A DNA stretch of 64,000 nt, from contig NZ_CP083666.1 of assembly GCF_020097835.1 (NCBI RefSeq), positions 186,001 through 250,000 of the forward strand. Reading direction: 5' to 3'. Numbering within the stretch: the first letter of the stretch is position 1; each line of letters opens with the position of its first letter. The notes under the pieces are model-generated. The model searched no databases. It saw only the letters and a program-made list of their open reading frames with translations, and was not told the DNA's origin. A program made the translations under genes and the position numbers. The DNA is from Haloprofundus halobius. Lineage in GTDB: Archaea > Halobacteriota > Halobacteria > Halobacteriales > Haloferacaceae. Shown in pieces: positions 3,636 through 20,501 of this stretch.

Positions 3636-4379
3636 ATGCATCTCGCAGACGCACTCGCCGCGCGGGAGGGGATGACCTGCGTCGTCGGCGCGGGCGGGAA
3701 GAAGACGACGATGTACGCGCTCGCCGCGCGTCTCGACCGGGCCGTCGTCACCGCGTCGGTCCGCATCCCGATTCCGTCGCTCGAAGAGAACGTCGAAGAA
3801 GTCGTCGTCACCGACGACCCGCTCGGCGCGCTCGAAGCAGCGACGCCCGACGACTTTCCTCTTGGCTTGGTCCCCGGCCAAGCCGACGACGTGCGGTACC
3901 ACGGCTACGAGAACGAACTTCTGGACCGCCTCGCCGACTCGCACGACGGTCCGGTTCTCGTCAAAGCCGACGGCGCGCGGATGCGCGACTTCAAAGCCCC
4001 GAGCGACAGGGAACCACAGATTCCCGAGACGACGGATACCGTGCTCCCCATCGCCAGCGCGCACATCGTCGGCGAACCCTTAGACGAGAACCTCGTCCAC
4101 CGACCCGAACGAGTCGCCGAAATCGCCGGAATCGACGTGGGCGACACGATGACGGCCGAAACGGTTGCGGCTGTTCTCGCCAGCGACGACGGGGGACTGA
4201 AACGAGTCCCCGGGGAAGCGACGGCGGTTCCGGTCGTGAACAAAGTCGACGACGTTGTACTGGCCGGCGTTGGAAGAGAGATCGCGTTGAAGGTGCTGGA
4301 GCGCGCCGGTGGCCGAGTCGAGCGAGTGGTTCTCACACGAATGAACCACGACGACCCGGTGGTCGACGTAGTGGGTTGA
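3636..4379 (+). CDS. YqeC-like putative selenium/molybdenum cofactor accessory protein
   Basis: 247 residues. A Walker A-like loop GAGGKKTT lies at residues 18-25, as in the YqeC family, which is found near selenium-dependent molybdenum hydroxylases and MobA-type proteins. Family members are thought to act in labile selenium or molybdenum cofactor maturation, but the biochemistry is not well settled. LVKADGARMRDFKAP near the middle and VVNKVDD further on are typical family segments. It converges with mobA (minus strand), with only 9 bases between the stops. I see no selenium genes in the window, so a purely Mo/W role is equally plausible. Confidence 0.75.
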   Translation: MHLADALAAREGMTCVVGAGGKKTTMYALAARLDRAVVTASVRIPIPSLEENVEEVVVTDDPLGALEAATPDDFPLGLVPGQADDVRYHGYENELLDRLADSHDGPVLVKADGARMRDFKAPSDREPQIPETTDTVLPIASAHIVGEPLDENLVHRPERVAEIAGIDVGDTMTAETVAAVLASDDGGLKRVPGEATAVPVVNKVDDVVLAGVGREIALKVLERAGGRVERVVLTRMNHDDPVVDVVG

Positions 4380-4388
4380 CCCGTCGCG

Positions 4389-5009
4389 CTACCGTACTTG
4401 CTCGAACTCCGCGGCCGCGTCCTCGAACTCCTCGCGCGTGTTCAGGTTCTTGAACGTTCGCAGACTCCCGCGTTCGGCAATCTCCGACTCGTCGACGACG
4501 ACGTAGTCCAACTCGAACAGCGGGTCGATAATCTTGCGTGCGCCTTCTTCGAGCGCCGCATCGCAGGCGTCGGCCATCGCCGTCGCCCGGTAGACAGCGT
4601 GGGTCGTCTGGAACCACTTGTCCTCCAACTGCGCCACGGCCGCGTCGTGGCCCTCGGCGCGTTCGAACAGGTACGAGACGACATCTGGGTCGACAAAGGG
4701 CATGTCGCAGGCGACGACGACGGCGTACTCGCCGGAGACGGCGCGGAGGCCGGTCCGGATCCCCGACATCGGCCCCTCGTCGGGGGTCTCGTCCTCGGCG
4801 ACGGAGACCGTATGTGGATATCCCTCGAACGCGTCGCGTATCGCCGCGCGCTGGTCGGCGCGGCAGTTCACCACGAGAGAGTCGACGACGCCGGCGAGTC
4901 GGTCGCCGACGCGGCGAATCATCGGGGTTCCGGCGAGGTCGGCTGTCGCTTTGTCGGCGTCGCCGAAGCGGGTCGAGCGACCGCCGGCGACGATGACTGC
5001 CGTACGCAT
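4389..5009 (-). CDS. mobA: Molybdenum cofactor guanylyltransferase-like protein
   Basis: 206 residues. It is an NTP-transferase of the MobA type, which adds GMP to molybdopterin. The N-terminus VIVAGGRSTRFGDADKA carries the nucleotide-binding GGxSxRFGxxDK signature. VVACDMPFVDPDV in the middle contains the metal-binding Asp of the CDMP motif. I chose ATG at 5009 because the signature must sit close to the N-terminus; the frame stays open further upstream. It faces the YqeC-like gene tail to tail and is divergent from the AOR homologue. The alternative is a related nucleotidyltransferase with another substrate, since haloarchaea encode several. Confidence 0.85.
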   Translation of the reverse strand: MRTAVIVAGGRSTRFGDADKATADLAGTPMIRRVGDRLAGVVDSLVVNCRADQRAAIRDAFEGYPHTVSVAEDETPDEGPMSGIRTGLRAVSGEYAVVVACDMPFVDPDVVSYLFERAEGHDAAVAQLEDKWFQTTHAVYRATAMADACDAALEEGARKIIDPLFELDYVVVDESEIAERGSLRTFKNLNTREEFEDAAAEFEQVR

Positions 5010-5138
5010 GCGTGGCGGTTCGGTCGGACGCGACAAGCCTCTTGCGTCGGAGCGAACCACCGACGGTCGGTCGTCCGCCGCCACCCAAACTGCCGCCCCG
5101 CCAACGCTTATTGCCGTGAAGAATCATTTATAAATCAG

Positions 5139-6986
5139 ATGACGACCCCCACGCGCGACGCCGTGCTGCGGGTGGACCTCTCGGCGGGAAGCGTCGAGCG
5201 AACGCGCGTTCCCGAGGAGTGGCGACGCGATTACCTCGGCGGGAAGGGGGTGGGCGCGCGCTACCTCTACGCGGACCTCGCCCCCGGCGTCGACCCGCTC
5301 GGCCCCGACAATCTTCTTTCCTTTATGCTCGGCCCGCTGTCCGGTTACCTCCCGGGCGAGACGCGCTACGCGGCGGTGACGAAGTCGCCGCTCACCGGCG
5401 GCTTCCTCGACTCCTACGGCGGCGGGTCGTTCCCCGAGCGCCTCGCCGGGTCGCTCGACGACTGTCTCGGCGTCCTCGTCTCCGGTCGCGCCGAGAGCCC
5501 GGTCGCGCTCGTGGTCGAGGACGGAACGGTGACCATCGAACCCGCCGACGACCTCTGGGGCCGCGACACCGTCGAGACGGACGCCGCGTTCCCCGACGCG
5601 GCCGTCGCGTGTATCGGCCCGGCCGGCGAGTCCGAAGTCGCCTACGCCACTATCGCCTCCGACGCCGGCGACCACCACGCCGGACGCGGCGGTGCAGGAG
5701 CGGTGATGGGTTCGAAGCGACTGAAAGCCGTCATCGCCCGCGGCGACGCCCCCGAAGTGCCGTCCGAACTCCGCGACCTGCGCGAGCAGTACGAGCGCCG
5801 GTACGCGGACCACGACACGGGACGCTGGCAGGCCGCTGGCGAGACGCTGGAGAGCGTCGACTTCGCCAACGAAGTCGGGGTCCTCGCCACCGAGGGGTGG
5901 CAGCGAGGGCGGTTCGCGGGGGCGGAGAACATCGGAATCGAGGCGGCGCGCGAGGCGGCCGTCGGCCGCGAACGCGAAGGCGACGCCGCGCCCGGTGGCT
6001 TCCGTATCCGAACCGGAGATGGCGAGCACGAGAGCGTCCCGCGCGGGGCGACGCCGATGACGCTCGGGGCCGGACTCGGCGTCGAGGAGTTCGACGCCGT
6101 CGCGGCGCTCGGCGAGACGTGCGACCGACTCGGCATCGACGTCATCAGCGCCGGGAACGCTATCGCGTGGGCTATCCGCGCTGCCGACGCTGGCCTCGTC
6201 GAAACCGATGTCCGCTTCGGCGACGAGGAGGCGGCGCGGCGACTGCTCACCGCAATTGCGATGCGCGACGTCGAACTGGCCGACGCGCTCGCCGACGGCG
6301 TCGACGCCGCCGCCCGGCGCTACGGCGGCGACGACCTCGTACCGACGGTGAAGTCGATGGAACTGCCGACGTACGACCCCCGCGGCGCGGTGGGGATGGC
6401 GCTGGCGTACGCGACGAGCGACCGTGGTGCGTGCCATCGTCGCGCCAGACCGGTCGAGCGCGAGGTGTTCGAGGCGTGGGACGACGCCGACGTGGTCGAA
6501 GCCGTCGCGGGCGCGCAGACCGTCCGCTCCGTTCTCTGGAGTCTCGTCGCCGACGACTTCGTCGGCGAGACGATGTGGGGCGACCTCGGCGCGGAGTGGC
6601 TCGCGGCGGTCGGACTCCCCCACGACGCCGACGAACTGAGCCGAACCGGCGAGCGCATCTGGACGCTCGTCCGCCTGTTCAACGTCCGCGAGGGGTTCGA
6701 CCGGGCGGACGACGCGCTCCCCGAGGCGCTGCGCCGTCCCCTCGCGGACGGCCCGGCGGCCGGTAGCGCCGTCGATCCCGAGGCGTTCGGGCGACTGCTC
6801 GACGCCTACTACGCCGCTCGCGGGTGGGGGTCCAACGGTCGACCGACTCGAGCGACGGTCGAGCGATTCGGCCTCGGAAGCGTCGTCGACGACGCGACGC
6901 CGCTGGCCGACGAGGCGACGAGCGCCGAACGGACGAACCGCCGAACGACCGCCGCAGACGCCGACCACCACACAGATGACAGATAG
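5139..6986 (+). CDS. Aldehyde ferredoxin oxidoreductase homologue lacking Fe-S ligands
   Basis: 615 residues, AOR family. The tungstopterin-binding signature GRGGAGAVMGSKRLKAV is at residues 182-198 and the family segment YDPRGAVGMALAYATSDRGACH is at 412-433. Canonical AORs bind a [4Fe-4S] cluster through C-x2-C-x3-C plus a distant Cys. Here the expected region (about 280-300) has no Cys, and the distal site reads AGAQTVRSVLW. The only Cys are at 109, 158, 328 and 432. The intact pattern is present in the paralogue at 27950-29881. The start is ATG 5139; GTG 5163 is an alternative given a TTTATAAA box at 5127-5134. The last 11 bases overlap the next gene. Function after loss of the cluster is unknown. 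Confidence 0.88.
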   Translation: MTTPTRDAVLRVDLSAGSVERTRVPEEWRRDYLGGKGVGARYLYADLAPGVDPLGPDNLLSFMLGPLSGYLPGETRYAAVTKSPLTGGFLDSYGGGSFPERLAGSLDDCLGVLVSGRAESPVALVVEDGTVTIEPADDLWGRDTVETDAAFPDAAVACIGPAGESEVAYATIASDAGDHHAGRGGAGAVMGSKRLKAVIARGDAPEVPSELRDLREQYERRYADHDTGRWQAAGETLESVDFANEVGVLATEGWQRGRFAGAENIGIEAAREAAVGREREGDAAPGGFRIRTGDGEHESVPRGATPMTLGAGLGVEEFDAVAALGETCDRLGIDVISAGNAIAWAIRAADAGLVETDVRFGDEEAARRLLTAIAMRDVELADALADGVDAAARRYGGDDLVPTVKSMELPTYDPRGAVGMALAYATSDRGACHRRARPVEREVFEAWDDADVVEAVAGAQTVRSVLWSLVADDFVGETMWGDLGAEWLAAVGLPHDADELSRTGERIWTLVRLFNVREGFDRADDALPEALRRPLADGPAAGSAVDPEAFGRLLDAYYAARGWGSNGRPTRATVERFGLGSVVDDATPLADEATSAERTNRRTTAADADHHTDDR

Positions 6987-7845
6987 CATCGACCTCGACG
7001 AACTGGACGTATCGACCGACAGCGACGCGGAGAGTGCCAATCGTGGCGACTGGTTCTGGAAGGGGGAAGGCGACCCAGACGACGAGCGGGGGGCCGGAGA
7101 CTCCGACGACGGATCTCTCGGTTCGCCCGACGTCGCCGAGCGTTCCGGTGCCGACGCCGCTGCCGCCGAGAACGCCGCCGACACTACCGTCGCTGATACT
7201 GCCGAGGCAGCCACCTCGACGGAGACGGACCCCGACATCGACACGAGTGCGGAGACCGATTCCGACGCGAGCCACCGCCCGATCCCGCGCGTGCCGCGAA
7301 CCGACGACGGCAGTCCCGTCGGCATCCCAATCGAGGGCGGCGGCGCAGGCGGCGCGGCGACCGGGAGTATCGACGCCGACGACGCGGCCGCTGCAGACGA
7401 CGACGCGGAACCGGAGCCCACGGGACCACACGGGAGCGGCCCCTCCGAGATGACGATGGCGCTGACGTACGAGGCGGTGAAGCGACTGGAGAACCCCGCC
7501 GCCGCGTTCGCCGACGCCGAGGGGTGGACCGACTGGCTCGGCATCGTCGGCGACGTGGACGCGCACGTCATCACCAAGTTCCAGCGCGAGTCGGTCGTCG
7601 ACGTGGACTTCTTCAACGGTACCGGCACCGGTCCGGCCGAGCGTCTCGCCGGCATCGACGGCCACTCGATGTTCTTCGCCGAGCGGATGGTCGTCGTCGG
7701 CGTCGCGGGCGTCGACGAGTACATCGCCGAGGCGAGCGGGTGGGAGTTCGTCCCGCTGGAGACCGCCGCGGAGAAAGCCGGCTGGCCGCTCGTCGACGAG
7801 AGTGAGGGAACCGAGAACCACGTCGGCGACGCGGCGGAACGCTGA
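6976..7845 (+). CDS. Hypothetical protein with acidic N-terminal tail (DUF7124-like)
   Basis: 289 residues. Residues 1-155 are disordered and rich in Asp, Ala, Ser and Thr. The C-terminal ~130 residues form a compact domain starting MTMALTYEAVKRLENP and including DVDFFNGTGTGPAERLAG. I recall a haloarchaeal family of this type (DUF7124), but this was not checked. The ATG overlaps the end of the AOR homologue by 11 bases, so translation is probably coupled and the two proteins may function together. No catalytic motif is evident. Confidence 0.75.
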   Translation: MTDSIDLDELDVSTDSDAESANRGDWFWKGEGDPDDERGAGDSDDGSLGSPDVAERSGADAAAAENAADTTVADTAEAATSTETDPDIDTSAETDSDASHRPIPRVPRTDDGSPVGIPIEGGGAGGAATGSIDADDAAAADDDAEPEPTGPHGSGPSEMTMALTYEAVKRLENPAAAFADAEGWTDWLGIVGDVDAHVITKFQRESVVDVDFFNGTGTGPAERLAGIDGHSMFFAERMVVVGVAGVDEYIAEASGWEFVPLETAAEKAGWPLVDESEGTENHVGDAAER

Positions 7846-7897
7846 GACCGCCTCCCCGCACGTAATTTTTTGTGACTCCGACACGCACTAGCACAGT

Positions 7898-8164
7898 ATG
7901 AGTCTCAGAAACGGGTTCCGGCAGTCGTCGGTGCTCACGTTCGGCATTCTCGCCGCGATGGCGTGGCTGGCGCTCACCGCGGTACAGGTGTTCTCGTCGG
8001 TCGAGTCGCCGCTGACGTGGGCCGACCCGCCCGTCGGGACGGGCGCGATGGGCGGTCTCGTCGGTATCGGCGTGATGGTCGTCTTCGTCGGCGTCCTGCT
8101 GGTGCTGTTCAGCGAACTCGGCCACTCCGACCCCGCGCCGGAGGCGTGGCCGCCGGAGCGATGA
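7898..8164 (+). CDS. Small two-TM membrane protein
   Basis: 88 residues with two hydrophobic segments, roughly residues 13-33 (VLTFGILAAMAWLALTAVQVF) and 50-70 (GLVGIGVMVVFVGVLLVLF), and a short charged C-terminus. An AT-rich box (TAATTTTTT, about 7863-7871) lies ~30 bases before the ATG, the spacing of a leaderless haloarchaeal promoter. The stop overlaps the start of the zinc-ribbon gene (ATGA), and that gene overlaps the next, so three genes form one operon. Function unknown. Confidence 0.75.
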   Translation: MSLRNGFRQSSVLTFGILAAMAWLALTAVQVFSSVESPLTWADPPVGTGAMGGLVGIGVMVVFVGVLLVLFSELGHSDPAPEAWPPER

Positions 8165-8307
8165 CGCAGTTCGAGTGCACCGAGTGCGGCCAACTCGGGC
8201 GGTTCGGACGCTTCGACGAGTCGACGCTGACGATGCGCTGTCCCGTCTGCGAGGAACAGACGGTCTGGACCGTGGCCTTCGCCGACGAGGGAGGGGTGTC
8301 GTTTTGA
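8161..8307 (+). CDS. Small zinc-ribbon protein (CPxC type)
   Basis: 48 residues. Two Cys pairs, CTEC near the start and CPVC about 20 residues later, form a C4 zinc ribbon of the kind abundant among haloarchaeal micro-proteins. The start ATG overlaps the preceding stop (ATGA), and its own stop overlaps the following TTG start. That places it in the middle of a tightly coupled three-gene operon. Such proteins are often regulators or protein-interaction modules; the specific partner cannot be read from sequence. Confidence 0.8.
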   Translation: MTQFECTECGQLGRFGRFDESTLTMRCPVCEEQTVWTVAFADEGGVSF

Positions 8308-8642
8308 CGGTCGTCGTCCCGCTCTCAGAGCGGTTCCACGAGGCGGCCGAGGAGTGGGCCGACACCCGCCTCATGGACCCGGAGGACGCAGTCGAGGTGA
8401 AAGCCGAACAGGCGCTTCTGGAGGTCGAACACCTCGTCTCGGGCGCGCACGACGTCGAGTTCGCGGTCGAAGACGGCGAACTCCGCTACGACCCGAGCGA
8501 GGAGTTGGCGGCGCTGCTGGCGTCGCACGCGGAGACGACGGGCGTCGACGAGGCGACGGTGTTAGGACTCCACGTCGACCTCTTCGCCCGCGTCTTCCTC
8601 GACGACGACGCGAAGCGGCCGTCGAACGCGCCGCCGAAGTGA
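8304..8642 (+). CDS. Hypothetical small acidic protein
   Basis: 112 residues, predicted to be soluble and mostly helical, with a high Glu/Asp content and no cysteine motif. I chose TTG at 8304 because it overlaps the stop of the zinc-ribbon gene by four bases (TTGA), in keeping with the coupling of the two upstream genes. The frame itself is open earlier. Segments such as DPEDAVEVKAEQALLEVEHLV look like a conserved core. No family recognised. Confidence 0.7.
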   Translation: MTVVVPLSERFHEAAEEWADTRLMDPEDAVEVKAEQALLEVEHLVSGAHDVEFAVEDGELRYDPSEELAALLASHAETTGVDEATVLGLHVDLFARVFLDDDAKRPSNAPPK

Positions 8643-8716
8643 CTCGAGTCGCGGACGTTTCGCTCCCGCTGCCGACGTACGAACTATTAAGCGACCGGAG
8701 TGCGAACCGTTGTCAC

Positions 8717-8902
8717 ATGAAGAAGGACAGCGGGTGGCGACCGACCGCGGCGATGGACGAGTACAAAGGCTTCGCCACGTGGGAGTACGAGACCGGTCCG
8801 CAGGAGATAAATCAGGGCGAAGTCGACGGGGCGCCCGGCTTTCCGCTCGCGTTGAAGGCGAAACTCGGACTGGTCGACGACGACGTGGAACCGCCGGAGT
8901 GA
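8717..8902 (+). CDS. Small hypothetical haloarchaeal protein
   Basis: 61 residues, MKKDSGWRPTAAMDEYKGFATWEYE at the start with several aromatic residues, then an acidic tail. The short length, sensible ATG and AT-rich stretch about 25-35 bases upstream (ACTATTAAG near 8680-8690) support a real leaderless gene. It stands alone after the three-gene operon and converges with the DyP-like lipoprotein. Function not known. Confidence 0.65.
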   Translation: MKKDSGWRPTAAMDEYKGFATWEYETGPQEINQGEVDGAPGFPLALKAKLGLVDDDVEPPE

Positions 8903-8938
8903 GGCGGGCGGCGGCCACGACCACGTTTCTGCGGTGAT

Positions 8939-10192
8939 TCACAGTAAAGGGAAGGAGCGGTCGTTCCGCGCCGGGACGTAGAAGTTCGCCCGCGACGCGA
9001 CGCGGACGAAGTTGAGGATGCCGTTGTGCTCGCGGTCGGTGATCGCCTCGCTGTCGTCGCGGACGTACCACCCGTTCATCGCCTTCCGCGTCCGCCGAAA
9101 GTCGTCGAGTTTTCGCTGGAAGGCGACGAAGTGGACGCCCGGTTTGCCACCGTCGACGGTGTTGAAGTCGCGGCGGAGCACGAGCGGTTCGTCGGTGTCG
9201 TCGCGGCGGACCTGCGCGACTTTCTCGTGGTGGCCGACGACGTCGTGGTCGCGGGCGTGTTCGCGGACCCGATTCGAGAAGGGTACGTCGTCGGTGAGGT
9301 TCGCCACGTCCTCTGCGCTGAACTCCGGCGAGAACATCCGCTGGATACGCTCGTGCTCGTCGAGCGTGCCGTACCAGTCGCGGAGGTTCACGGTCAGTCG
9401 GCTGAGATGCATCGTCGTCCCGTCGGCGAACCGGCCGTCGGGGATGGCGACGCTCGACTCGGCGGGTTGCGTGCGCTTGCGCCCCGAGAAAAAGCCCATG
9501 AACATCTGCTCGTCGCCCGAGAGTGCGTCGCCGGGAACGCCCTCCGCGTCGGCGTGTTCGGCGGGCAGTCCCTCGCCGAGGAAGCCGGTTCGCCGCCCGC
9601 GGATTCGGAACACGTCGTCGAGGCGGTGGTCGACCGACTCGCCTTCGAGTCGCGTTCGGGAGCCGAACAGGGCGTTCTCGGCGGCTGCGAGGTGCGACGG
9701 GAGGTCACTCTCCAGCACGAGCGCGGCGTCGAACGACTGGAGTTCCGGTTTGTCGGTCCGCGACAACACCTGCGGTGGATCGATGGGGACGCGCGAGAGT
9801 TCCCCGATTCGCTCGAAGTAGTTCGTCCCCCACGCCAGCGTGTGAAACAGCCCCTCGTGGTGCCAGTCGTACGCCGCTTCGAGCGTCCGCATCGCCCGTT
9901 CGACGGTACGCGCGTCTTCGACCGAGGGTTCACGCTGCAGGTCCATGAGGAGGATGCGGCGGTAGCGCGCCTGCAGGTCGTTTCCGGACCCGTCGGTCGG
10001 CAGGGACTCGGCCTGCGCGAACTGGCGGTCCGGGAGGCGGTCGCCCCGCGGGTTGGCGGCGAGTCCGTCGACGCCCGGGCCGGTCGCCGGATCGAGGAGG
10101 CGGCTACAGCCCGAGAGGCCGGCGGCTCCCGTCACGGCCGCGAGACGGGTCAGCGCGGTGCGTCGTGAGACCACGGTTTCAGTAGAACTCAC
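8939..10192 (-). CDS. Tat-exported DyP-like lipoprotein with altered heme-pocket motif
   Basis: 417 residues from GTG 10192; a TTG at 10207 is the upstream alternative. The N-terminus has a twin-arginine motif (SRRTALTRL) followed by a lipobox LSGC, so it is probably exported folded and lipid-anchored. The body has the dye-decolorizing peroxidase fold pattern. GHHEKV...LVLRRDFNT carries the likely proximal His and heme-pocket Arg, and GVHFVAFQRKLDDF is the C-terminal family segment. The catalytic GFxDG motif instead reads MGFFSGRKRTQ, so the distal Asp appears replaced by Ser. It may be a heme-binding protein without normal peroxidase activity. I believe databases hold a haloarchaeal family for it, but this was not checked. 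Confidence 0.75.
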   Translation of the reverse strand: MSSTETVVSRRTALTRLAAVTGAAGLSGCSRLLDPATGPGVDGLAANPRGDRLPDRQFAQAESLPTDGSGNDLQARYRRILLMDLQREPSVEDARTVERAMRTLEAAYDWHHEGLFHTLAWGTNYFERIGELSRVPIDPPQVLSRTDKPELQSFDAALVLESDLPSHLAAAENALFGSRTRLEGESVDHRLDDVFRIRGRRTGFLGEGLPAEHADAEGVPGDALSGDEQMFMGFFSGRKRTQPAESSVAIPDGRFADGTTMHLSRLTVNLRDWYGTLDEHERIQRMFSPEFSAEDVANLTDDVPFSNRVREHARDHDVVGHHEKVAQVRRDDTDEPLVLRRDFNTVDGGKPGVHFVAFQRKLDDFRRTRKAMNGWYVRDDSEAITDREHNGILNFVRVASRANFYVPARNDRSFPLL

Positions 10193-11196: not shown

Positions 11197-11826
11197 TTAG
11201 CGCGCCATCTGGGCGACGAGTTCGTCCTCGAACTCGACGAGACCTGCGAAAACGAGCGCCGCCGCCCGGAACAGCGGCTCCTCCGTCTCGTCGAGCACGT
11301 CGTCGACGAACGCCTCGTGCCACGTCGTCAAGTGTTCGTCGAGGAAGACGCGCTCGTAGCCGAACGCCTCCTCCGCGCCGTGGAACTGTCGCTCGACGAG
11401 GGAGCGGAGGAACGCGAGTTCGACGGCGATGAAGTCGTTCTCCTCGCCGTACTCCTCCGGCGGGTTCCACCCGGCGGCGGCGTAGCTTGCCTCGACGTTC
11501 GCCAGCCCCTCGCCGATGAAGTCGGTGTCGTCGCGGTAGTACGTCTCGTGGGCCAGCACGGGCGGCCGCGGGCCGACGAAGACGCGGGTGTACTCCTGCG
11601 CCAACTCGTCGTGGACCGCCGCCGGGTCCCGTCCCTGGTTCTTCGCGACGAACTCCCGGAGCAGGTCGAATCCCTCGTCCAGCGAGGTGTTCACCGCCGC
11701 GTCAGGCAACTGGAGGCCGTCGCCGAGCAGGTTCGCGACGAACGCCTCGTCGGGCACGTCCCAGAACACCTCGACGACGAAGTCGAGCAGTTCGAGGCGG
11801 GCGTCGTAGACGGCGGCGTCGTCCAT
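11197..11826 (-). CDS. TorD/DmsD-family molybdoenzyme chaperone
   Basis: 209 residues, all-helical. The pattern LAQEYTRVFVGPRPPVLAHETYYRD is characteristic of TorD-type chaperones that bind the Tat signal of a molybdoenzyme until its cofactor is inserted. The likely client is FdhA (14163-17408), which has a twin-arginine leader and lies in the same locus. The ATG overlaps the stop of the upstream Fe-S gene by one base (TAATG), so the two are translated together. The product is cytoplasmic. A shared role for the AOR enzymes is unlikely, because they have no Tat leader. Confidence 0.85.
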   Translation of the reverse strand: MDDAAVYDARLELLDFVVEVFWDVPDEAFVANLLGDGLQLPDAAVNTSLDEGFDLLREFVAKNQGRDPAAVHDELAQEYTRVFVGPRPPVLAHETYYRDDTDFIGEGLANVEASYAAAGWNPPEEYGEENDFIAVELAFLRSLVERQFHGAEEAFGYERVFLDEHLTTWHEAFVDDVLDETEEPLFRAAALVFAGLVEFEDELVAQMAR

Positions 11827-13952
11827 TATCGGCCACCTCCATGCTCGAACAGCAGTCCGGCGCGACAGTCCCCGCAGTAATCGAAGACGCTGGCGTCGGC
11901 GGTCGGCGCGACCCCTTCGACCACGTCGCCGACCTCGCCTTTCACCTTCTCGATGGAGCCCCGACTGGCGAACGCTTTCCCGCAGCGGACGCACTCGGCC
12001 ATCTCGCCCTCGTACACCGTCTCCCAGCGCTCGCCGTCGTTGCGCTCCGGGAGGCGCGAGAGGTCGAGTCCGGTGCGCATGGTGATGGCCGTCTCCGGAC
12101 AGCCCTCCTCGCAGAGCCCGCAGTTGACGCAGTCCTCGTGGCTGAACTGCAGGTCGCCGTCGCCGGTCCGGCGGATGGCGTCGGTCGGACAGAGCGTCGA
12201 ACAGGTCGGCGTGAGGTTGCACGCCTCGCTCACCTCCATCCGCCCGAACGTCTCCAGCCCCCGAACCACGTCGCGTTCGGGCGTCGCGTGGTCGACGACG
12301 ACGCGGATACTCTCCAGCGCCCAGTCGTGGGTGTTGAACGCCGGGTTCGGTTTGTCGTCGCGGACGACGCCCGTCGCGCGGTGCTCGCCCGCCGGAACGG
12401 GCGTCTCCGAGAGGCCGTCGACGAACGCCTCGACTTCGGCGACGAACGACTCGTGGTCGGCGGGGTCGGGCGCGAAGAACGCGGTTCGCTCGCCGAGGCC
12501 GAGGTCCGTCGTCGCGCGGTTCAGTCGCTCGACCAGCTCGGCCTTCGGGTCCGGCCCGGCGTGCAGACAGCCCTCGCCACAGCCGACCACGGCGACGCCG
12601 TCGGCCCCGGTGGCGAGCGCGTGCAGCACGTGGGCCTCGCCGACGGTGTCCGTGCAGTTCACCGAGACGGGAAGGATGGGCGGGTACGCGAGGTCGGTGC
12701 CGCTGGCGGCGCGGCGGCCGTAGGCGCGGAGCGCGTCGGACGCGCGCTCCGAGCAGACGAACGCGATGACGGGCGTCTCGATGCCCCTCTCGCCTCTGTT
12801 GAACAGCCAACCGCCCCCCTGCTCTTCCACGTCGAGCAGCGCCTCCACCTCGCGTGCGAGGCGCTCGTTCGACGGTTCGCGGAGCATCGTCGCGCCCGTC
12901 GGGCAGGCGCTCGTACACGCGCCGCAGTCCTGACAGGCCACCTCGTCGAACTCGACGGAGTCTATTGTCGGTCGCCGGACGGCGTCGTGCGGGCAGGCGT
13001 CGGTGCAGGCGGTACAGCCCTGCTGGCTCGACTCGCCGGCCGCGCAGACGTCGAGGTCGAGATCCAGATGTTTCGGTTTCGTGACGCCGCCGAGGAGACT
13101 CTCGACGGCGGCGACGGTGCCGGCGTCGACGGGGCCGGTGTAGAAGCCGAGTCGGCCGCCGCGGGCGACCGAGGTGGTGTCGGGGTACACCACCTGGTCG
13201 GTTTCGAGGGTGCGCTCGACACCGGAGCGGTCGATGGCGTCGGTCGGACAGCACTCCTCCCAGTCGCCGCCGGGGGCGTCCGGGTCGATATCGACCGGGT
13301 AGCGCGTCAGCATCCCGCCGGGACCCTCCTTGACGCACTTCATACAGGAGACGCAGTCCTCTGTCACCTCCGCGCGGAGCGTGAGTTCGAAGTCGCCGAA
13401 CTCGCCCTCGACGCCAACGACGCGCCCGCGTTCGACGGTCACGTCCGAGAGGTCGACGTCGAGATCGTGGAAGTCGCGGCCGTCGGCGACGAGCGTCACT
13501 TCGGCGGTGGCGGCGAGCGCGGCGGCCGTCTCGGCGTCGCCGACGACGACGACGGCGTCGCCGGCCTCGCCCGTGACGCTCCGGGTCGCCGCCTCGTGTT
13601 CGAGTCCGGCGCGACGCGCGTTTAGCAGGCGGGCCGTCTTGTCGGTGGCCGCCTCGCGGTCGTGGACCCAGCCCGCGCCCGCGCGATGGTCGACGAACGA
13701 GGTGGCCTCCGGGTGGAGTCCCTTCTCTTCTGCGAGCGCGCGGAAGCGTCGTTGACAGCCCGAATCTGGGGCGGTGACGAGCAACTGGTCGAGGTCGTAC
13801 TCGTCAACGAGCTGCGCCATCGCCGGGAGGCCGTCCTCACAGAGCAGCGTCGAGCTGGCGACGACGTCCACGTCGCGGACGCCGTCGCGCGCACGTTCGA
13901 GGTCGATATCGCAGGTGTCGCCGCAGGAGCAGACGAAAGCGCCGACGTTCAT
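11826..13952 (-). CDS. HdrA/MvhD-like polyferredoxin fusion protein of the formate dehydrogenase locus
   Basis: 708 residues from ATG 13952 (ATG 13973 is also in frame). The parts, in order, are: an HdrA-like start VGAFVCSCGDTCDID (C8, C10, C14); a short VVVVGDAETAAALA segment (132-146) that may be a vestige of a dinucleotide-binding fold; a ferredoxin-like set with C200, C203, C206 and C235; a 2x[4Fe-4S] domain (C313, C316, C320, C340, C343, C346, C350); an MvhD-like domain (393-515, Cys 400, 433, 458, 462); another ferredoxin pair (C578-C588 and C608-C618); and a C-terminal CxxC...CxxC (654/657 and 693/696). In methanogens HdrA and MvhD pass electrons between hydrogenase or formate dehydrogenase and heterodisulfide reductase. 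Here the protein is divergent from fdhA and co-translated with the chaperone. Its redox partner is unknown. Confidence 0.82.
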   Translation of the reverse strand: MNVGAFVCSCGDTCDIDLERARDGVRDVDVVASSTLLCEDGLPAMAQLVDEYDLDQLLVTAPDSGCQRRFRALAEEKGLHPEATSFVDHRAGAGWVHDREAATDKTARLLNARRAGLEHEAATRSVTGEAGDAVVVVGDAETAAALAATAEVTLVADGRDFHDLDVDLSDVTVERGRVVGVEGEFGDFELTLRAEVTEDCVSCMKCVKEGPGGMLTRYPVDIDPDAPGGDWEECCPTDAIDRSGVERTLETDQVVYPDTTSVARGGRLGFYTGPVDAGTVAAVESLLGGVTKPKHLDLDLDVCAAGESSQQGCTACTDACPHDAVRRPTIDSVEFDEVACQDCGACTSACPTGATMLREPSNERLAREVEALLDVEEQGGGWLFNRGERGIETPVIAFVCSERASDALRAYGRRAASGTDLAYPPILPVSVNCTDTVGEAHVLHALATGADGVAVVGCGEGCLHAGPDPKAELVERLNRATTDLGLGERTAFFAPDPADHESFVAEVEAFVDGLSETPVPAGEHRATGVVRDDKPNPAFNTHDWALESIRVVVDHATPERDVVRGLETFGRMEVSEACNLTPTCSTLCPTDAIRRTGDGDLQFSHEDCVNCGLCEEGCPETAITMRTGLDLSRLPERNDGERWETVYEGEMAECVRCGKAFASRGSIEKVKGEVGDVVEGVAPTADASVFDYCGDCRAGLLFEHGGGR

Positions 13953-14162: not shown

Positions 14163-17100
14163 ATGAGCACAGAACCGGTTTCACTAGACTTAGACAGGCG
14201 GTCCTTCCTGAAGGCGAGCGCGCTCGCGGGCGCCGTCGCCCTCGGCGGCGGCGGCGCGGGCCAGGCGCTCGCCCAGAGCGAGGAGGGCGAAACGGACGGG
14301 GCCGACGTAGAGGGCGAACTGACGAAGACCATCTGCAACTTCTGCGCGGTCGGCTGTGGGTTCCGCGCCGAGCGGAAAGGCAGCGCGTTCGCCGGGCAGG
14401 AACCCTGGCACGAGAACCCCATCAACAACGGGTCGCTCTGCTCGAAGGGGGCGGCCATCTACGGGAGCGAACACTCCGAGAAGCGGTTGAAACACCCGCT
14501 GAAGAAGGTCGACGGCGAGTGGCAGAAGATCTCCTGGTCAGAGGCGTACGACGACATCTCCTCGGAACTGGAGCGCATCCGCGAGGAGTTCGGCCCGGAC
14601 AGCGTGATGTGGCTCGGCAGCGCCCACCACTCCAACGAGGAGGCGTACGCGTTCCGGAAACTCGCGTCGCTGTACGGGACGAACAACTGCGACCACCAGG
14701 CGCGCATCTGCCACTCGACGACGGTGGCGGGCCTCGCGAACACGTGGGGCTACGGCGCGATGACGAACACCATCAACGACTACCGCAACTTCGACCTCAA
14801 CATCATCATCGGGCAGAACCCCGCGGAGGCGCACCCGATTGCGATGCAACACATCCTCGAAGGCCAGCGTCGCGGCGGCACCATCGCCTCCGTCGACGCG
14901 CGGTTCACGAAGACGTCGGCGCACGCCGACAGTTTCTACCGCATCCGCCCGGGGACGGACGTCGCGTTGATGATGGGGCTGATATACTACCTGCGCGAGC
15001 AGGGCGAACTCGACCAGGAGATGCTCGACGGGCGGGTGAACGGCTGGCCCGACATCGACCGGAACCTCGACCAGTACGACCTCGAAACCGTCGCGGACAT
15101 CACGTGGATAAGTCAGGAGCAGATTCAGGAACTGGGCGACCTCATCATCGAGAACAAGCCGAACGTCCAGATCGAGTGGGCGATGGGCGGTACCCAGCAC
15201 AACAACGGGACGCAGAACATCCGGTCGTACGCGCTGGCGAGTCTCGCCTCCGGCACCGCCGCCCGAAGCGGCGGCGGCCTGCAGGTAATGCGCGGACACG
15301 CGAACGTCCAGGGGGCGACCGACCTCGCGGTGGCGAGTCACATCCTGCCGGGCTACTACTCGGTGTCGTCGGCCGGGTCGTGGCAGTACTGGGCCGACGT
15401 CTGGACGCAGAGTCCGTACACGAGCGGGAGCATCAGCTTCCGGGAACTGTACGACCGCTACGACCTGATGGAGCGCGACATGTATGCGCGGCAGGACGAG
15501 TACGTCAACTACGGGGATTCGAGCGACCCCGACGACTCCGAAGCGGCGGGCGAGAACGAGGGAGAGATAGACGACTCGTTCCCGAGCGAGCGGTCGATGA
15601 TGTTCCAGAACGGGCTGACGGTCGCCCGGTGGTTCGACGCCGCGCTCCCGCAGGAGCAGCGACTCAACGAGACGCCCATCTATCAGCCGAATCCGGTGAA
15701 GGCGGCCTTCTTCTGGGGCCACTCGGCGAACTCCATCAGCGAGATGGAGAAGATGCGCGACGGGATGGACCTGCTCGACTTGCTGGTCGTCGTCGACGTG
15801 TTCCCCTCGCTGGCCTCGGTGATGGCCGACCGCTCCGACGGCGTCATCATCCTGCCCGCGGCCAGCCAGTACGAACACTACCGGTCGCTGACGAACTCCC
15901 ACCGGTCGGTGCAGTGGAGCGACCCGGTTCGAAACCCCTCGCACAACACGAAGCCCGACCTGCAGATAATGCAGGAGCTGGCCGCCGAACTCGGCTTCGG
16001 CGACCACTTCGACTGGGGGACCGGCCCCGAACTGTACAGCGGCAAGAGCACCTACCAAGACGTGCTCCGCGAGATCAACCTCGGCGTCCGGACTATCGGG
16101 TACCAGCAGGACCCCGAGCGACTGGAGAGCCAGCGCGAGTACGACTGGGCGTTCAGCACCGAAGACCTGAAGGCGACGCAGGGGCCGCACAAAGGCGAGT
16201 TCTGGCAACTACCGTGGCCCTGCTGGGGGGAGGGTCACCCCGGCACGCCCATCATCTGGACCGACGACCTCGACCCCAACGAGGGCGGCCACGACTTCCG
16301 CGCCCGGTGGGGGACGACCGCTCCAACACCCGAGGAGTGGAACGAGATGACGACGCCCGCCGAGGAGTACCCGCTTCGGTCGACGTTCGACCAGCAGGGC
16401 GAGGAGGGGCTGAACCTGCTCCGGGACTCGTTCGATCCCGACTGGTGGAACGGGTCGGGGCCGATCCGCGGCGTCCCGCAGTACCCCGGCTTCACGACGA
16501 CGCTGCCCGAAGACTTCGAGAACGCCGACGCGCCGAACCTCCCGACGCGGTACGCGCTCGACCCGACGAAGTCGGTGCTCGACGCCGCGCGGGACATGAA
16601 CGAGCGGTTCGACTGGGCGGACTTCGACCTCGACGACTACCGCCCCTACGACTTCAAGCAGCCGGACCCGCCGACGGGTCGGGCGAAGGCCCGCGCCGTG
16701 GCGTGGAACTTCCTCGACCCGATTCCGGTCCACCGCGAACCCATCGAGAGTCCGCGACCTGACCTCGTCGAACAGTGGCCGGCAAACGGCCAGCAGCGCA
16801 ACTTCTACCGCCTCGACCAGAACAACGCGACGGTTCAGGAGGATGCGACGCGGAAAGCCGCCGAGAACGGCTTCGACGTCATCATGACTACGGGAAGACA
16901 GGTCGAACACCAGGGCGGCGGTTCCGAGAGTCGCTCGAACATCTTCCTGGCGGACCTACAACCGCACATGTACGCCGAGATAACGCCGAACATGGCTGAC
17001 GAACTCGGCGTCGACGGCGGCGACCTGGTCGTCGTCTCGACGACCGACCGCGGCTCCGTCCTCGTGAAGGCGCGGGTGACGAACCGCCCGAACGACCGCG

Positions 17101-17408
17101 AGACGTTCCTCCCGTTCCACTGGGGCGGTATCTGGCGCGGCAAGAGCCTGGAGGAACGCTACCCCGACGGGACGGTGCCGTTCGCGCTGGGTGACAGCGT
17201 GAACCTCATCACGTCGAAGGGGTACGACGTCGAAACGCAGATGCAGGAGACGAAGGCGGCGATGGTGAAAGTACGGCCGGCGACGCAGGAGCTCGTCGAC
17301 GAACTCAACATGGACGTCGACCTGTCGTCGCTGGAGTTCCCGCAGGACCGCGACAACGTCGGGACGCAGAAGGACTTCGACGTCCGTGACTCGAAAACAG
17401 TCCAATAA
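14163..17408 (+). CDS. fdhA: Formate dehydrogenase catalytic subunit, Tat-exported
   Basis: 1081 residues, Mo/W-bisPGD oxidoreductase family. The twin-arginine leader DRRSFLKASALAGAVAL (residues 11-27) fixes ATG 14163 as the start. Residues C58, C61, C65 and C93 bind the [4Fe-4S] cluster. QARICHSTTVAGLANTWGYG carries Cys183-His184, the pair that in formate dehydrogenases binds the metal (Cys or Sec) and assists hydride removal; the VAGL...GAMTN context is specific for this enzyme class. The C-terminal domain covers about 890-1040. The length is close to E. coli FdnG. An exported enzyme with FdhB and cytochrome b genes downstream implies respiratory formate oxidation. An in-frame acidic stretch near 455-480 is probably a halophilic insertion. 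Confidence 0.92.
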   Translation: MSTEPVSLDLDRRSFLKASALAGAVALGGGGAGQALAQSEEGETDGADVEGELTKTICNFCAVGCGFRAERKGSAFAGQEPWHENPINNGSLCSKGAAIYGSEHSEKRLKHPLKKVDGEWQKISWSEAYDDISSELERIREEFGPDSVMWLGSAHHSNEEAYAFRKLASLYGTNNCDHQARICHSTTVAGLANTWGYGAMTNTINDYRNFDLNIIIGQNPAEAHPIAMQHILEGQRRGGTIASVDARFTKTSAHADSFYRIRPGTDVALMMGLIYYLREQGELDQEMLDGRVNGWPDIDRNLDQYDLETVADITWISQEQIQELGDLIIENKPNVQIEWAMGGTQHNNGTQNIRSYALASLASGTAARSGGGLQVMRGHANVQGATDLAVASHILPGYYSVSSAGSWQYWADVWTQSPYTSGSISFRELYDRYDLMERDMYARQDEYVNYGDSSDPDDSEAAGENEGEIDDSFPSERSMMFQNGLTVARWFDAALPQEQRLNETPIYQPNPVKAAFFWGHSANSISEMEKMRDGMDLLDLLVVVDVFPSLASVMADRSDGVIILPAASQYEHYRSLTNSHRSVQWSDPVRNPSHNTKPDLQIMQELAAELGFGDHFDWGTGPELYSGKSTYQDVLREINLGVRTIGYQQDPERLESQREYDWAFSTEDLKATQGPHKGEFWQLPWPCWGEGHPGTPIIWTDDLDPNEGGHDFRARWGTTAPTPEEWNEMTTPAEEYPLRSTFDQQGEEGLNLLRDSFDPDWWNGSGPIRGVPQYPGFTTTLPEDFENADAPNLPTRYALDPTKSVLDAARDMNERFDWADFDLDDYRPYDFKQPDPPTGRAKARAVAWNFLDPIPVHREPIESPRPDLVEQWPANGQQRNFYRLDQNNATVQEDATRKAAENGFDVIMTTGRQVEHQGGGSESRSNIFLADLQPHMYAEITPNMADELGVDGGDLVVVSTTDRGSVLVKARVTNRPNDRETFLPFHWGGIWRGKSLEERYPDGTVPFALGDSVNLITSKGYDVETQMQETKAAMVKVRPATQELVDELNMDVDLSSLEFPQDRDNVGTQKDFDVRDSKTVQ

Positions 17409-17417
17409 GGTGAGATA

Positions 17418-18092
17418 ATGTCGACAAACAACACGAACGAAGCGAAGATGTCACAGGGCGTCATGAGCGTCGGTGAGGACGCGCGAATCTTCCCCGACGT
17501 GGAGGCGTGTATCGACTGCGGCGGCTGCGTCGTCGCCTGCAAACGCACGTGGGACGTCCCGCGGGACGAACAGCGCATCAGCATCTCGACGATGCTCGAA
17601 GGAGAGGAGGCGGCGGCGGGGCTCAACGCCCACAGCGCGCGGGCGCTCAGACAGGGTCAGAACCCCGGCGAGACGAGCGTGCCGATGCAGTGTTACCACT
17701 GCGAGAACGCGCCCTGCGTCTCGGTCTGTCCGACCGACTCGCTGTTCAAGAAGGACAACGGCTTCGTCGAGGTCAGAGACGACCTCTGCGTCGGCTGCCA
17801 GTACTGCCTGTCGGCGTGTCCGTTCGGCGCGCCGCAGTTCCCCGACGCCGACGAGGGCGCGGCGAAACTGTTCGGCACCGGCGGCACGATGGATAAATGT
17901 ACGATGTGCGAGGAGCGCCAGGACGTCGGCAAAGGGCCCGCCTGCGCCGAGGAGTGTGCGACGGACGCCCTTCTCGTCGGCACCGCCGGTCAGATCGCCG
18001 AGGAACTCGACAAGCGCGGCAGCGCGTCGTTCTTCAACCAAGAGGCGATGGAGATAATCTTCGGTGCCGAGGACGCGGAGGCGTTCCAATGA
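17418..18092 (+). CDS. fdhB: Formate dehydrogenase iron-sulfur subunit
   Basis: 224 residues with sixteen Cys arranged for four [4Fe-4S] clusters: 31/34/37/41, 92/95/100/104, 124/127/130/134 and 161/164/176/180. This is the FdnH/NrfC/DmsB-type electron-transfer subunit that links the molybdenum site of FdhA to the membrane cytochrome. It has no signal peptide, so it probably leaves the cell as a complex with the Tat-borne FdhA. It starts 9 bases after fdhA and overlaps the next gene by ATGA. Internal ATGs at residues 11 and 16 are alternative starts. Confidence 0.92.
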   Translation: MSTNNTNEAKMSQGVMSVGEDARIFPDVEACIDCGGCVVACKRTWDVPRDEQRISISTMLEGEEAAAGLNAHSARALRQGQNPGETSVPMQCYHCENAPCVSVCPTDSLFKKDNGFVEVRDDLCVGCQYCLSACPFGAPQFPDADEGAAKLFGTGGTMDKCTMCEERQDVGKGPACAEECATDALLVGTAGQIAEELDKRGSASFFNQEAMEIIFGAEDAEAFQ

Positions 18093-18532
18093 GCCGCTCG
18101 CTGCCCGAGACGCGCGACTACAGCGGGTTGGCCATCGCCGTCAACGCGATTATCGCCCTGGTCGTCACCGCCGTCGTCGTCTGGTGGGTGTCCGGCTTCG
18201 CGTACAACGCCGAGGCGTTGTTCCGCGTCGGGCCGACCGTCGAGGGCGGCGGCATCGGGGCCGACTGGAGCGTCGGCAACACGATCCCGGCGCTGGACTT
18301 CCTCATCGCGTTCATCCACGCGGCGGACGTGCTGATGGGTATCTTCATCCTCGTCATGGTGTTCGTCCACTGGGGCGCGTTCCGCCGCCTCGCCTCGCGG
18401 ATGCGTCAACCCGGCGAGACGTCGCGGTACGACTCCGACGCGGACGCCGTCGCCGACGGCGGTCGAGCGGTCGAAAGCGGTGCCTCGGATTCCGGCGACG
18501 ACGCTTCCGACTCCGGAGGTGAGCATCGATGA
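18089..18532 (+). CDS. Small membrane protein of the formate dehydrogenase operon
   Basis: 147 residues. It has two TM helices (about 13-36 and 72-98), an acidic disordered C-terminus (Asp/Ser/Gly from about 115), and a His in each of IHAAD and FVHWG in the second helix region. Start and stop each overlap a neighbour by four bases (ATGA), so it is an obligate operon member between FdhB and cytochrome b. It may be an extra anchor or an assembly factor. I do not recognise a family outside haloarchaea. Confidence 0.75.
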   Translation: MSRSLPETRDYSGLAIAVNAIIALVVTAVVVWWVSGFAYNAEALFRVGPTVEGGGIGADWSVGNTIPALDFLIAFIHAADVLMGIFILVMVFVHWGAFRRLASRMRQPGETSRYDSDADAVADGGRAVESGASDSGDDASDSGGEHR

Positions 18533-19542
18533 CGAACTTGGACCACGGGAAGTTCACCCGGATGACGACGACGTTCCACACGCTGCTCGCGCTGGACGTG
18601 TTCATCCTGTTCTTCTCGGGCTACGGGCTGATGTTCAACGACGAACTCTGGTGGCTCGTCACGCTGATGGGCGGCAGCACCGGCGTGACGGCGGTTCACC
18701 GCATCGCGGGCCTCGGCCTCGTCGCGCTCATCGTCTTCTGGATGCTGATGATGCTGACGACGAGCACCGGCCGCGGCAACTTCCGTGAGATTCTGCTCGG
18801 TCCCGACGACGTCGCCGCCGCGATTCAGGACTTCAAGTTCGTCCTCGGGATGGCCGACGAGCGCCATCCGAACGCCCGGCAGTTCGCGGGCTACAAATCC
18901 GACGAGGTGCCGCTGCTTTCGTACATCGGCAAGGGCGTCGTCTACATCTTCTCCATCGAACTGACGCTGCTCACCATCTCGGGGCTGCTCATCTGGAGCA
19001 AGACCGGCGTGATGCAGTACTTCGCGACGAAGACGGCGGCGATGGCGTTCGTCGTCTTCCACGGCCTGCTCGGCGTCATCATGCTGATGGGCGTGATGTT
19101 CCACATCTTCGAGCACGGCTTCCATCCGGCCTTTTACCCCGTCGAGGTGAAGGCGTTCATCCCACGGAAACTGATTCCCGAGGAGCACGCCGACACCGAG
19201 CACGACTCGACGGGTATCAGCCAGCTCACCCTCGCGCCGTCGTGGGGGTGGGCGACGAACGTCATGGGCGTGCTCACCGTCATCGGCATCGTGAGCGTCC
19301 TCGTGGGCAGTATCTTCGACGAGGGCTACCCCGTCCCGCGCGAACTCGCCGTCGGCGGCGGACCGACCGACCTGCTTCTGACCGTCGGCATCAACGTCGG
19401 CATCCTCGTGCTGTTCATCGGAATGGCGCTGCAGATGTACGGCAACCTGATGCGCGTCCGCTGGCAGAAGCAGTTGGAGGCGGAGGCGCGCGCGACGACC
19501 GCCACGGACGGTGGGCAGGTGGACCACCCGAACGACGACTAG
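18529..19542 (+). CDS. Formate dehydrogenase cytochrome b subunit (FdnI/FdoI type)
   Basis: 337 residues. Four or more TM helices carry His residues placed as for a di-heme b-type cytochrome: FHTLLALDVFILFFSG (helix 1), AVHRIAGLGLVALIVFW (helix 2), and FVVFHGLLGVIMLMGVMFHIFEHG (helix 4). The loop FKFVLGMADERHPNARQFAGYKSDE is typical of the prokaryotic cytochrome b561 / Ni-hydrogenase-type subunits. Two further helices at the C-terminus (about 238-257 and 283-302) exceed the usual four. It should take electrons from FdhB and reduce quinone in the membrane. Confidence 0.88.
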   Translation: MTNLDHGKFTRMTTTFHTLLALDVFILFFSGYGLMFNDELWWLVTLMGGSTGVTAVHRIAGLGLVALIVFWMLMMLTTSTGRGNFREILLGPDDVAAAIQDFKFVLGMADERHPNARQFAGYKSDEVPLLSYIGKGVVYIFSIELTLLTISGLLIWSKTGVMQYFATKTAAMAFVVFHGLLGVIMLMGVMFHIFEHGFHPAFYPVEVKAFIPRKLIPEEHADTEHDSTGISQLTLAPSWGWATNVMGVLTVIGIVSVLVGSIFDEGYPVPRELAVGGGPTDLLLTVGINVGILVLFIGMALQMYGNLMRVRWQKQLEAEARATTATDGGQVDHPNDD

Positions 19543-20099: not shown

Positions 20100-20501
20100 T
20101 CACGCCGAGAGCAGTTCCGCGCCCTCGGTGGAGAGTTCGACCGTCACGTCCTGTCTGGTGTGCTGGCTAATCTGGTCGATGTTCCGCGTCAGCACTTCGA
20201 GGACGTCCTTCGGTTCGGGGTAGACGAGCATGTTCCCGTCGTCGTCCTCCATCACGAGTTGGGTGTCCGAGAGCGAAATCTGGTCGTTCTCGATGCGGGC
20301 GACGATGGCGCGCAGTTCCTCTGCGCCGCCGGGGTCACCCTCCTCGACCATCGTCACGTACAGCGAGTCGAGACCGATGAGGTCCTTGTACTCGCGGACG
20401 CGGCGGGCGCAGCGCACCATGTCCTTCGTGACGGCCGTCTTCTGGGGGTTGCCGTGCTCGCCCTCGAAACAGTGCTTACACACCCGGAGTTCCATCCGCA
20501 T
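20100..20501 (-). CDS. Hypothetical protein with N-terminal CxxC
   Basis: 133 residues, soluble. A single CKHC pair near the N-terminus with nearby His could bind one metal or act as a redox pair. It is followed by a helical, acidic body with ENDQISLSDTQLVMEDDDGNMLVYPEP in the centre. ATG codons at 20501 and 20495 are both possible. It is divergent from the single-TM gene at 20609 across an AT-rich spacer. I do not recognise the family. Confidence 0.7.
   Translation of the reverse strand: MRMELRVCKHCFEGEHGNPQKTAVTKDMVRCARRVREYKDLIGLDSLYVTMVEEGDPGGAEELRAIVARIENDQISLSDTQLVMEDDDGNMLVYPEPKDVLEVLTRNIDQISQHTRQDVTVELSTEGAELLSA

Follow-up and report, generated by a model that had tools for sequence, protein, structure and literature searches.

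A flavin-less HdrA/MvhD-type polyferredoxin encoded with TorD beside haloarchaeal formate dehydrogenase: a probable maturation factor for exported molybdo- and tungsto-enzymes

The window analysed here, a stretch of 64,000 nucleotides from Haloprofundus halobius (NZ_CP083666.1, positions 186,001 to 250,000), carries on its minus strand a gene for a 708-residue polyferredoxin, which overlaps the gene for a TorD-family chaperone and diverges from a predicted formate dehydrogenase (FDH) operon. We use '708-aa protein' for this product and for its family (c0), and argue below that it probably acts with TorD in the maturation of enzymes exported by twin-arginine translocation (Tat). Genes were called with a simple open reading frame script, and their start positions are uncertain. 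The features that matter most are as follows.

11826..13952, minus strand: the 708-aa protein, a flavin-less HdrA / MvhD / HycF-like polyferredoxin (open reading frame, Pfam, NCBIfam, AlphaFold2 and profile search)
13608..13952, minus strand: HdrA-like N-terminal domain, residues 1-115, with Cys 8, 10, 14 and 38 (A2 profile against HdrA chains)
13053..13580, minus strand: shrunken remnant of the Rossmann/flavin adenine dinucleotide (FAD) domain, residues 125-300, with the cluster site C200/C203/C206/C235 and without GxGxxG
12903..13046, minus strand: dicluster ferredoxin 1, C303-C350 (Pfam and alignment)
12408..12770, minus strand: MvhD/FlpD domain, residues 395-515, with Cys 400, 433, 458 and 462 (PF02662; template-modelling score 0.73 to 5odc_D)
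11841..12245, minus strand: HycF-like module, made up of dicluster ferredoxin 2 (C578-C618) and a CxxC...CxxC ribbon (C654/657, C693/696) (7z0t_F, Z 10.1)
11197..11826, minus strand: TorD/NarJ-family chaperone, 209 residues (PF02613)
14163..17408, plus strand: FdhA-type catalytic subunit, with Tat signal DRRSFLK and active-site Cys183-His184 (nearest solved structure 9vap_A)
17418..18092, plus strand: FdhB-type ferredoxin subunit with several [4Fe-4S] motifs (FDH3 beta is the nearest family in NCBIfam, below its cut-off)
18089..18532, plus strand: small membrane protein of the fdh operon
18529..19542, plus strand: cytochrome b561-type membrane subunit (PF01292)

With A2, a profile built from 32 relatives of the 708-aa protein, residues 2-213 match HdrA 5-259 (E 3e-35) and residues 576-701 match HycF 38-163 (E 1.9e-13). 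Pfam places MvhD/FlpD (PF02662) at 395-515, with 63.1 bits against a gathering cut-off of 22.3, and matches several Fer4 models besides; the top NCBIfam match is HdrA2 (NF040770, 307-515 aligned to 576-769), at 102 bits and below the curated cut-off of 1100. When the AlphaFold2 model (predicted local distance difference test 85.1, predicted template-modelling score 0.84) is searched with Foldseek, HdrA chains rank first (E 1e-18 to 3e-16), followed by HycF and MvhD, and VIA-align recovers the HdrA fold over model residues 1-375 (Z 15-17) and a HycF match over residues ~570-704 (Z 10). Together, the profile and fold matches to HdrA rule out a simple ferredoxin array unrelated to that protein.

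What has gone is the flavin domain: model residues 129-291 (~163) cover a chain stretch of 149-576 (~428), so that ~265 residues are lost, and the GxGxx[G/A] dinucleotide motif is missing from all 32 aligned relatives, with a GDxxxA-type sequence standing where it would be. The N-terminal domain and the C-terminal dicluster ferredoxin fold that mark an HdrA are thus both present, and its FAD domain is not; the missing motif and the shrunken domain also rule out a FAD-dependent, bifurcating HdrA. We read the 708-aa protein as the descendant of a fused HdrA-MvhD ancestor in which the greater part of the flavin domain has disappeared. An earlier note on this DNA had read much of this from the letters: a 708-residue protein co-translated with a chaperone and divergent from FDH, with an HdrA-type N-terminus, ferredoxin modules, an MvhD-like domain and a C-terminal CxxC pair, its FAD part apparently almost absent and no HdrB/HdrC nearby. 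The coordinates and arrangement stand (13952-11826 and 11826-11197, joined at TAATG), as do the domains, to which the HycF likeness is an addition; HdrB/HdrC are indeed not nearby, as the genome's five CCG-domain (HdrB-like) matches all lie at least ~0.8 Mb away or on another contig. The note had also said beforehand that finding only unrelated ferredoxins in domain searches would count against it; HdrA, MvhD and HycF were found instead.

Cysteine conservation was read from an alignment of 61 main-family rows and 4 further rows, with L001, which is the same as the window copy, left out. Within the main family, Cys 8, 10 and 38 are each kept in 97% of rows and Cys 14 in 93%, and C200, C203, C206 and C235 of the single cluster site, MvhD Cys 400/433/458/462, seven cysteines of dicluster 2 and both CxxC pairs (C654/C657, C693/C696) are invariant; dicluster 1 keeps 8/8 in all 61 + 4 rows. 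The MvhD cysteines have been lost in the proteobacterial copies and in Halodesulfurarchaeum-like haloarchaeal members, which form two separate clades in an approximate tree and both keep the FDH-TorD association; copies from SAR324 and Entotheonella retain them. Even where they are lost, dicluster 1 and the CxxC ribbon, together with most of dicluster 2, remain invariant. At the second cluster position of dicluster 2, the window protein and the main haloarchaeal family have Thr, and the bacterial copies and the divergent clade have Cys; one cluster of this pair may therefore be [3Fe-4S], or use another ligand. The motif concerned, at residues 578-584, reads CNLTPTC (window 12201-12221, minus strand).

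The downstream gene matches the TorD/NarJ chaperone family (PF02613) at 89.7 bits (gathering cut-off 22.2, E 2.3e-25), and a one-base overlap, TAATG, joins the stop codon of the 708-aa gene to the torD start. On the opposite strand, FdhA begins ~210 bp away, in divergent orientation; its best solved relative is the FdhA of 9vap_A (E 2e-220), its active-site residues recur as Cys183 in 83/83 and His184 in 82/83 aligned homologues, and against the NCBIfam equivalog TIGR01591 it reaches 434.8 bits, under the cut-off of 666. By its sequence, this neighbour is probably a quinone-coupled formate dehydrogenase. A Tat motif is present in 69/72 FdhA homologues, with FdhA shorter than 800 residues and bacterial loci left out of that count. 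The 708-aa protein itself has neither a Tat signal nor a hydrophobic segment in its sequence, and is accordingly predicted to be cytoplasmic. A sigma-70/terminator scan of the intergenic region, of a kind not suited to archaea, returned no match.

Across 391 Halobacteria genomes, the 708-aa family (E 1e-20) occurs in 108, spread over 41/86 genera, and conservation of this breadth rules out a chance reading frame. FdhA, at the stricter cut-off of E 1e-150, occurs in 94; 92 genomes have both, 16 have the 708-aa protein without FdhA, 2 have FdhA without the 708-aa protein, and 281 have neither (Fisher p 9e-70, with phylogeny ignored). Where a match was split, its second piece was not entered in this table, which leaves the genome counts unaffected. 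The two genes lie within 10 kb in 89 of the 92 shared genomes and on opposite strands in 86, so that the link to formate dehydrogenase in the earlier note, with FdhA in 92/108 carriers, is borne out. That note had named as a point against itself that the protein might be common without FDH, and to a degree this is found: among the 16 genomes lacking a strict FdhA, 12 have a more distant one, three (G212, G285, G382; 3/108 carriers) have only the type-B molybdoenzyme described below, and one (G159, with a truncated gene; 1/108) has neither. As for the FdhA-only genomes, G181 carries a divergent 600-residue copy next to TorD (L060), and in G282 FdhA sits at a contig end. At the level of loci (64 of 65, L080 being left out as a tblastn match whose protein was not gene-called), TorD is the next same-strand gene in 48/64, at gaps of -11 to +37 bp and overlapping in 33 of the 48, and FdhA is divergently adjacent in 48/64; some of the missing neighbours reflect contig ends (L136, L139, L140) or an extra called reading frame (L085).

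Eight loci (L032, L045, L047, L048, L122, L127, L130, L132), which we term type B, are without FDH and run: Arr/Psr-like molybdenum enzyme, Fe-S subunit, NrfD, TorD, 708-aa family, Mrp/ApbC carrier, with MobA also present in some. The catalytic subunit is of the Tat-exported type and is nearest to PhsA and ArrA, and the Fe-S carrier matches PF10609 at 7e-89, plus PF01883. These loci rule out a formate-only role for the family. On a plasmid of Natronorubrum bangense (L075/L122), the operon is flanked by ArsR before it and ArsD and ArsA after it, which suggests that it may serve arsenic respiration. Relatives of the type-B enzyme are also found without a 708-aa copy: a close one in G128 (66% identity) and seven others at ~45% identity.

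Beyond the haloarchaea, a tblastn search of plasmids gave 82 records, two of them full-length and haloarchaeal and most others proteobacterial '4Fe-4S binding proteins'; phages gave no match to the family. The proteins so annotated at FDH3 loci of Bradyrhizobium, Sulfitobacter, Diaphorobacter, SAR324 and Entotheonella are full-length homologues, at 25-31% identity in A2. Their loci have TorD, Tat-exported FdhA/Fdh3B, MobA and Mrp in common with haloarchaea, and differ in that the proteobacterial copies are without MvhD cysteines, that DUF3305/3306 is also present, and that FdhD occurs in three examined loci (L073, L143, L146), directly adjoining the homologue in Entotheonella and one proteobacterium. 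At three plasmid loci that we examined, the genes present are drawn, in combinations that differ from locus to locus, from FdhA, Fdh3B, TorD, a Tat mini-protein, DUF3305/3306, and Mrp or MobA. The 708-aa homologue of SAR324 and Entotheonella is followed by FdhD (Entotheonella), a protein of 126-128 residues, TorD, FdhA and NrfD, in that order. In one paper, ferredoxins labelled 'fer4' or hypothetical are mentioned as part of TorD-fdh operons, with no function given for them (PMC4464133); these are presumably bacterial relatives of the 708-aa protein. A small Tat accessory protein of Shewanella, described in the portion of PMC3623810 available to us, we take not to belong to the family.

Three further genes of the window bear on the interpretation.

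20100..20501, minus strand: c7, a 133-residue CxxC...C protein that travels with the locus in haloarchaea
5139..6986, plus strand: aldehyde ferredoxin oxidoreductase (AOR) family protein, of a kind found near 44/64 loci
4389..5009, minus strand: MobA-type molybdenum cofactor guanylyltransferase, named after an annotated orthologue

In 80 genomes hand-picked across genera, 40 of them carriers of the 708-aa gene and 40 non-carriers, a c7 orthologue (at least 64% identity) is present in 32/40 carriers and 0/40 non-carriers; the carriers without it include the Halodesulfurarchaeum-like and type-B ones. The protein has no sequence relative in Pfam, NCBIfam or the PDB, and no fold match at E 0.001, with one of five models confident. 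It lies upstream of the 708-aa-family gene in some Natrialbaceae. YqeC (TIGR03172), which carries the name of a selenium cofactor protein, recurs with MobA, the AOR-family gene, DUF7124 and two small proteins (window 3636-9000) as a neighbourhood of the fdh locus, and a DUF7405 protein with weak Dyp-peroxidase similarity (window 8939-10135, minus strand) is frequent in haloarchaeal fdh loci. The window holds a second AOR-family gene at 27950-29881 (minus strand; PF01314 and PF02730).

Drawing these observations together, we favour a role for the 708-aa protein in iron-sulfur maturation in the cytoplasm, where it and TorD would together serve Tat-exported molybdo/tungsto-enzymes in the manner of NapF, and consider this probable, although by no means assured. 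Since FdhA is exported and the 708-aa protein has neither Tat signal nor hydrophobic segment, the two could meet only before export; predicted cytoplasmic location, co-translation with TorD, movement with TorD to another enzyme in type-B loci, and bacterial kin sitting among FdhD, MobA and Mrp all argue for maturation. We propose that the protein, made together with the chaperone, would act on TorD-bound, pre-export FdhA or a related Tat-exported enzyme with a molybdenum or tungsten bis-pyranopterin guanine dinucleotide (Mo/W-bisPGD) cofactor. Electrons, and perhaps iron-sulfur clusters as well, would pass from its ferredoxin clusters into the assembly of the [4Fe-4S] site of FdhA and of the metal cofactor in its reduced, sulfurated form. 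Once folded, the holoenzyme would be exported, to join its cytochrome b or NrfD membrane subunit. Both the interaction with FdhA/TorD and the identity of what is passed on, be it electrons, clusters or sulfur, are matters that we infer.

Several observations sit less comfortably with this proposal. Most haloarchaea have every MvhD cysteine and almost every cysteine of the HdrA N-terminal domain still in place, which implies a real electron-transfer chain, beyond what a simple chaperone would require. AOR-family genes neighbour 44/64 loci and possibly point to an electron-transfer partnership, though AOR likewise keeps company with DUF7124/c10/c13, and its place near the locus may be unconnected. 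In the type C loci of Natrialbaceae (c7 and the 708-aa family, beside FdhA, FdhB, NrfD and TorD), TorD ends the fdh operon and does not adjoin the 708-aa-family gene. In the related genomes G317 and G359, copies lie away from fdh (L043 6269-13785, L044), among genes that we take to encode copper-ATPase, SafE-like, CcdA-like, TlpA-like and SCO-like proteins; the fdh locus of G317 (L070) has TorD and no 708-aa copy of its own. The presence of fdhD in the same bacterial locus means that the homologue is no simple FdhD substitute, and our literature search found no study of, or experiment on, any member of the family.

The earlier note had offered two roles, an electron hub or an assembly factor, and it is the second that has gained. 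As a hub, the protein would accept electrons from FDH or AOR and relay them, by way of its HdrA-type, ferredoxin and MvhD clusters, to an acceptor in the cytoplasm, in the way that HdrA/MvhD works in methanogens, and the clear HdrA-MvhD ancestry, the MvhD cysteines invariant in the main family and the frequency of AOR nearby are all in keeping with it; BamE/BamF are HdrA/MvhD-like partners of an AOR-family enzyme. However, FdhA is Tat-exported and comes with an Fe-S subunit and a membrane subunit (cytochrome b or NrfD) of its own, the FAD motif is missing and HdrB/C are not nearby, two clades have dropped the MvhD cysteines and retained the FDH-TorD link, and type-B loci tie the protein to a non-FDH enzyme. 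That the ferredoxins and CxxC ribbon are invariant, and the MvhD electron exit is not, favours NapF-like assembly, and we regard the hub as unlikely.

A further proposal, to which we give rather little credence, is that the 708-aa protein, alone or with TorD and c7, replaces FdhD in the sulfuration or insertion of the Mo/W cofactor. The attraction is plain: FdhD (PF02634), the customary assembly factor of FDH, is detected in 0/391 Halobacteria genomes, with 8/14 controls positive, including methanogens and Sulfolobus, and yet the active-site Cys and His of FdhA are retained almost without exception; c7, for its part, is confined to carriers in the 80 genomes compared. Against this stand the bacterial loci that hold both genes, with FdhD adjoining the homologue, which lower any general substitution, and the absence of c7 from Halodesulfurarchaeum-like and type-B carriers. 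PF02634 is not among the Pfam matches of the 708-aa protein. Moreover, no requirement for FdhD is known for Arr/Psr-type enzymes, which weighs against the idea for type-B loci. The available part of a 2023 review of molybdoenzyme maturation (Magalon, PMC10609526) remarks that halobacteria often encode FDH without fdhD, the proteins for cofactor insertion and sulfuration being unknown. A redox sensor or quality-control gate, its clusters reporting anoxia or iron status and licensing TorD to release the precursor to Tat, is the least probable of all, for although co-translation with TorD and a CxxC-ribbon polyferredoxin recall the role of FdhE, itself a protein with CxxC motifs, at exported FDHs (as set out in the part of PMC10609526 at hand), the protein has no sensor-like domain, nothing specific speaks for such a gate, and FdhE (PF04216) was detected in 0/40 carrier genomes in a search whose control was positive in E. 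coli alone.

Returning to maturation, a bolder version would have this flavin-less HdrA/MvhD derivative turned into a redox-driven maturase that forms, with TorD and (in most haloarchaea) c7, an FdhD-independent route to Fe-S clusters and sulfurated Mo/W cofactor. We put this forward tentatively, as possible rather than expected; the connection with the absent FdhD activity is appealing, and weaker than the case for maturation itself. Even so, the co-translated 708-aa/TorD pair is a concrete candidate for part of the FdhD question in halobacteria, and, as the bacterial kin at FDH3 loci are annotated only as '4Fe-4S binding protein', its role would inform many organisms. The family would also illustrate that the HdrA/MvhD electron-transfer scaffold is separable from its flavin and can be kept for another job; the haloarchaeal annotation 'hydrogenase iron-sulfur subunit' is, in this light, a misleading name.

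Our literature search turned up no account of the flavin-less HdrA-MvhD-HycF architecture, nor of what it does. A membrane FDH of Halodesulfurarchaeum formicicum (HTSR_1573-1576) has been described, with the catalytic subunit detected in the proteome, and the part of that text available to us uses none of the terms TorD, chaperone, accessory, MvhD and polyferredoxin (PMC5437934). Of the known systems, HdrA and HdrA2-MvhD (PDB 5odc, 7bkb, 8rvu, 9sfi) share with the 708-aa protein the N-terminal Cys domain, the Rossmann core with an inserted cluster, the C-terminal dicluster ferredoxin and the MvhD domain that follows it; unlike them, it is without ~265 FAD-domain residues, GxGxxG and nearby HdrB/HdrC, and has a HycF-like module and a TorD partner. 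HycF (formate hydrogenlyase subunit 6) has the dicluster ferredoxin and CxxC region in common with the 708-aa C-terminus, but is a subunit of a hydrogenase complex, and none was seen near the 708-aa gene. FdhE and FdhD of E. coli, needed there for FDH activity (accessible part of PMC10609526), would be alike as accessories, with no sequence relation detected, and HydN/YsaA are reported, in what is available of PMC6004506, to raise FDH-H activity. NapF differs in being ~150 residues of ferredoxin repeats only, and its family TIGR00402 is not among the best 25 of 93 NCBIfam families for the 708-aa protein (a divergent relative, L051, reaches 48 bits against a cut-off of 102). It offers a functional parallel to the role proposed here, as a cytoplasmic protein with multiple [4Fe-4S] clusters that, according to the part of PMC10609526 available, is needed in vitro for the Fe-S cluster of exported NapA: a polyferredoxin acting on a Tat-exported Mo-bisPGD enzyme before its export.

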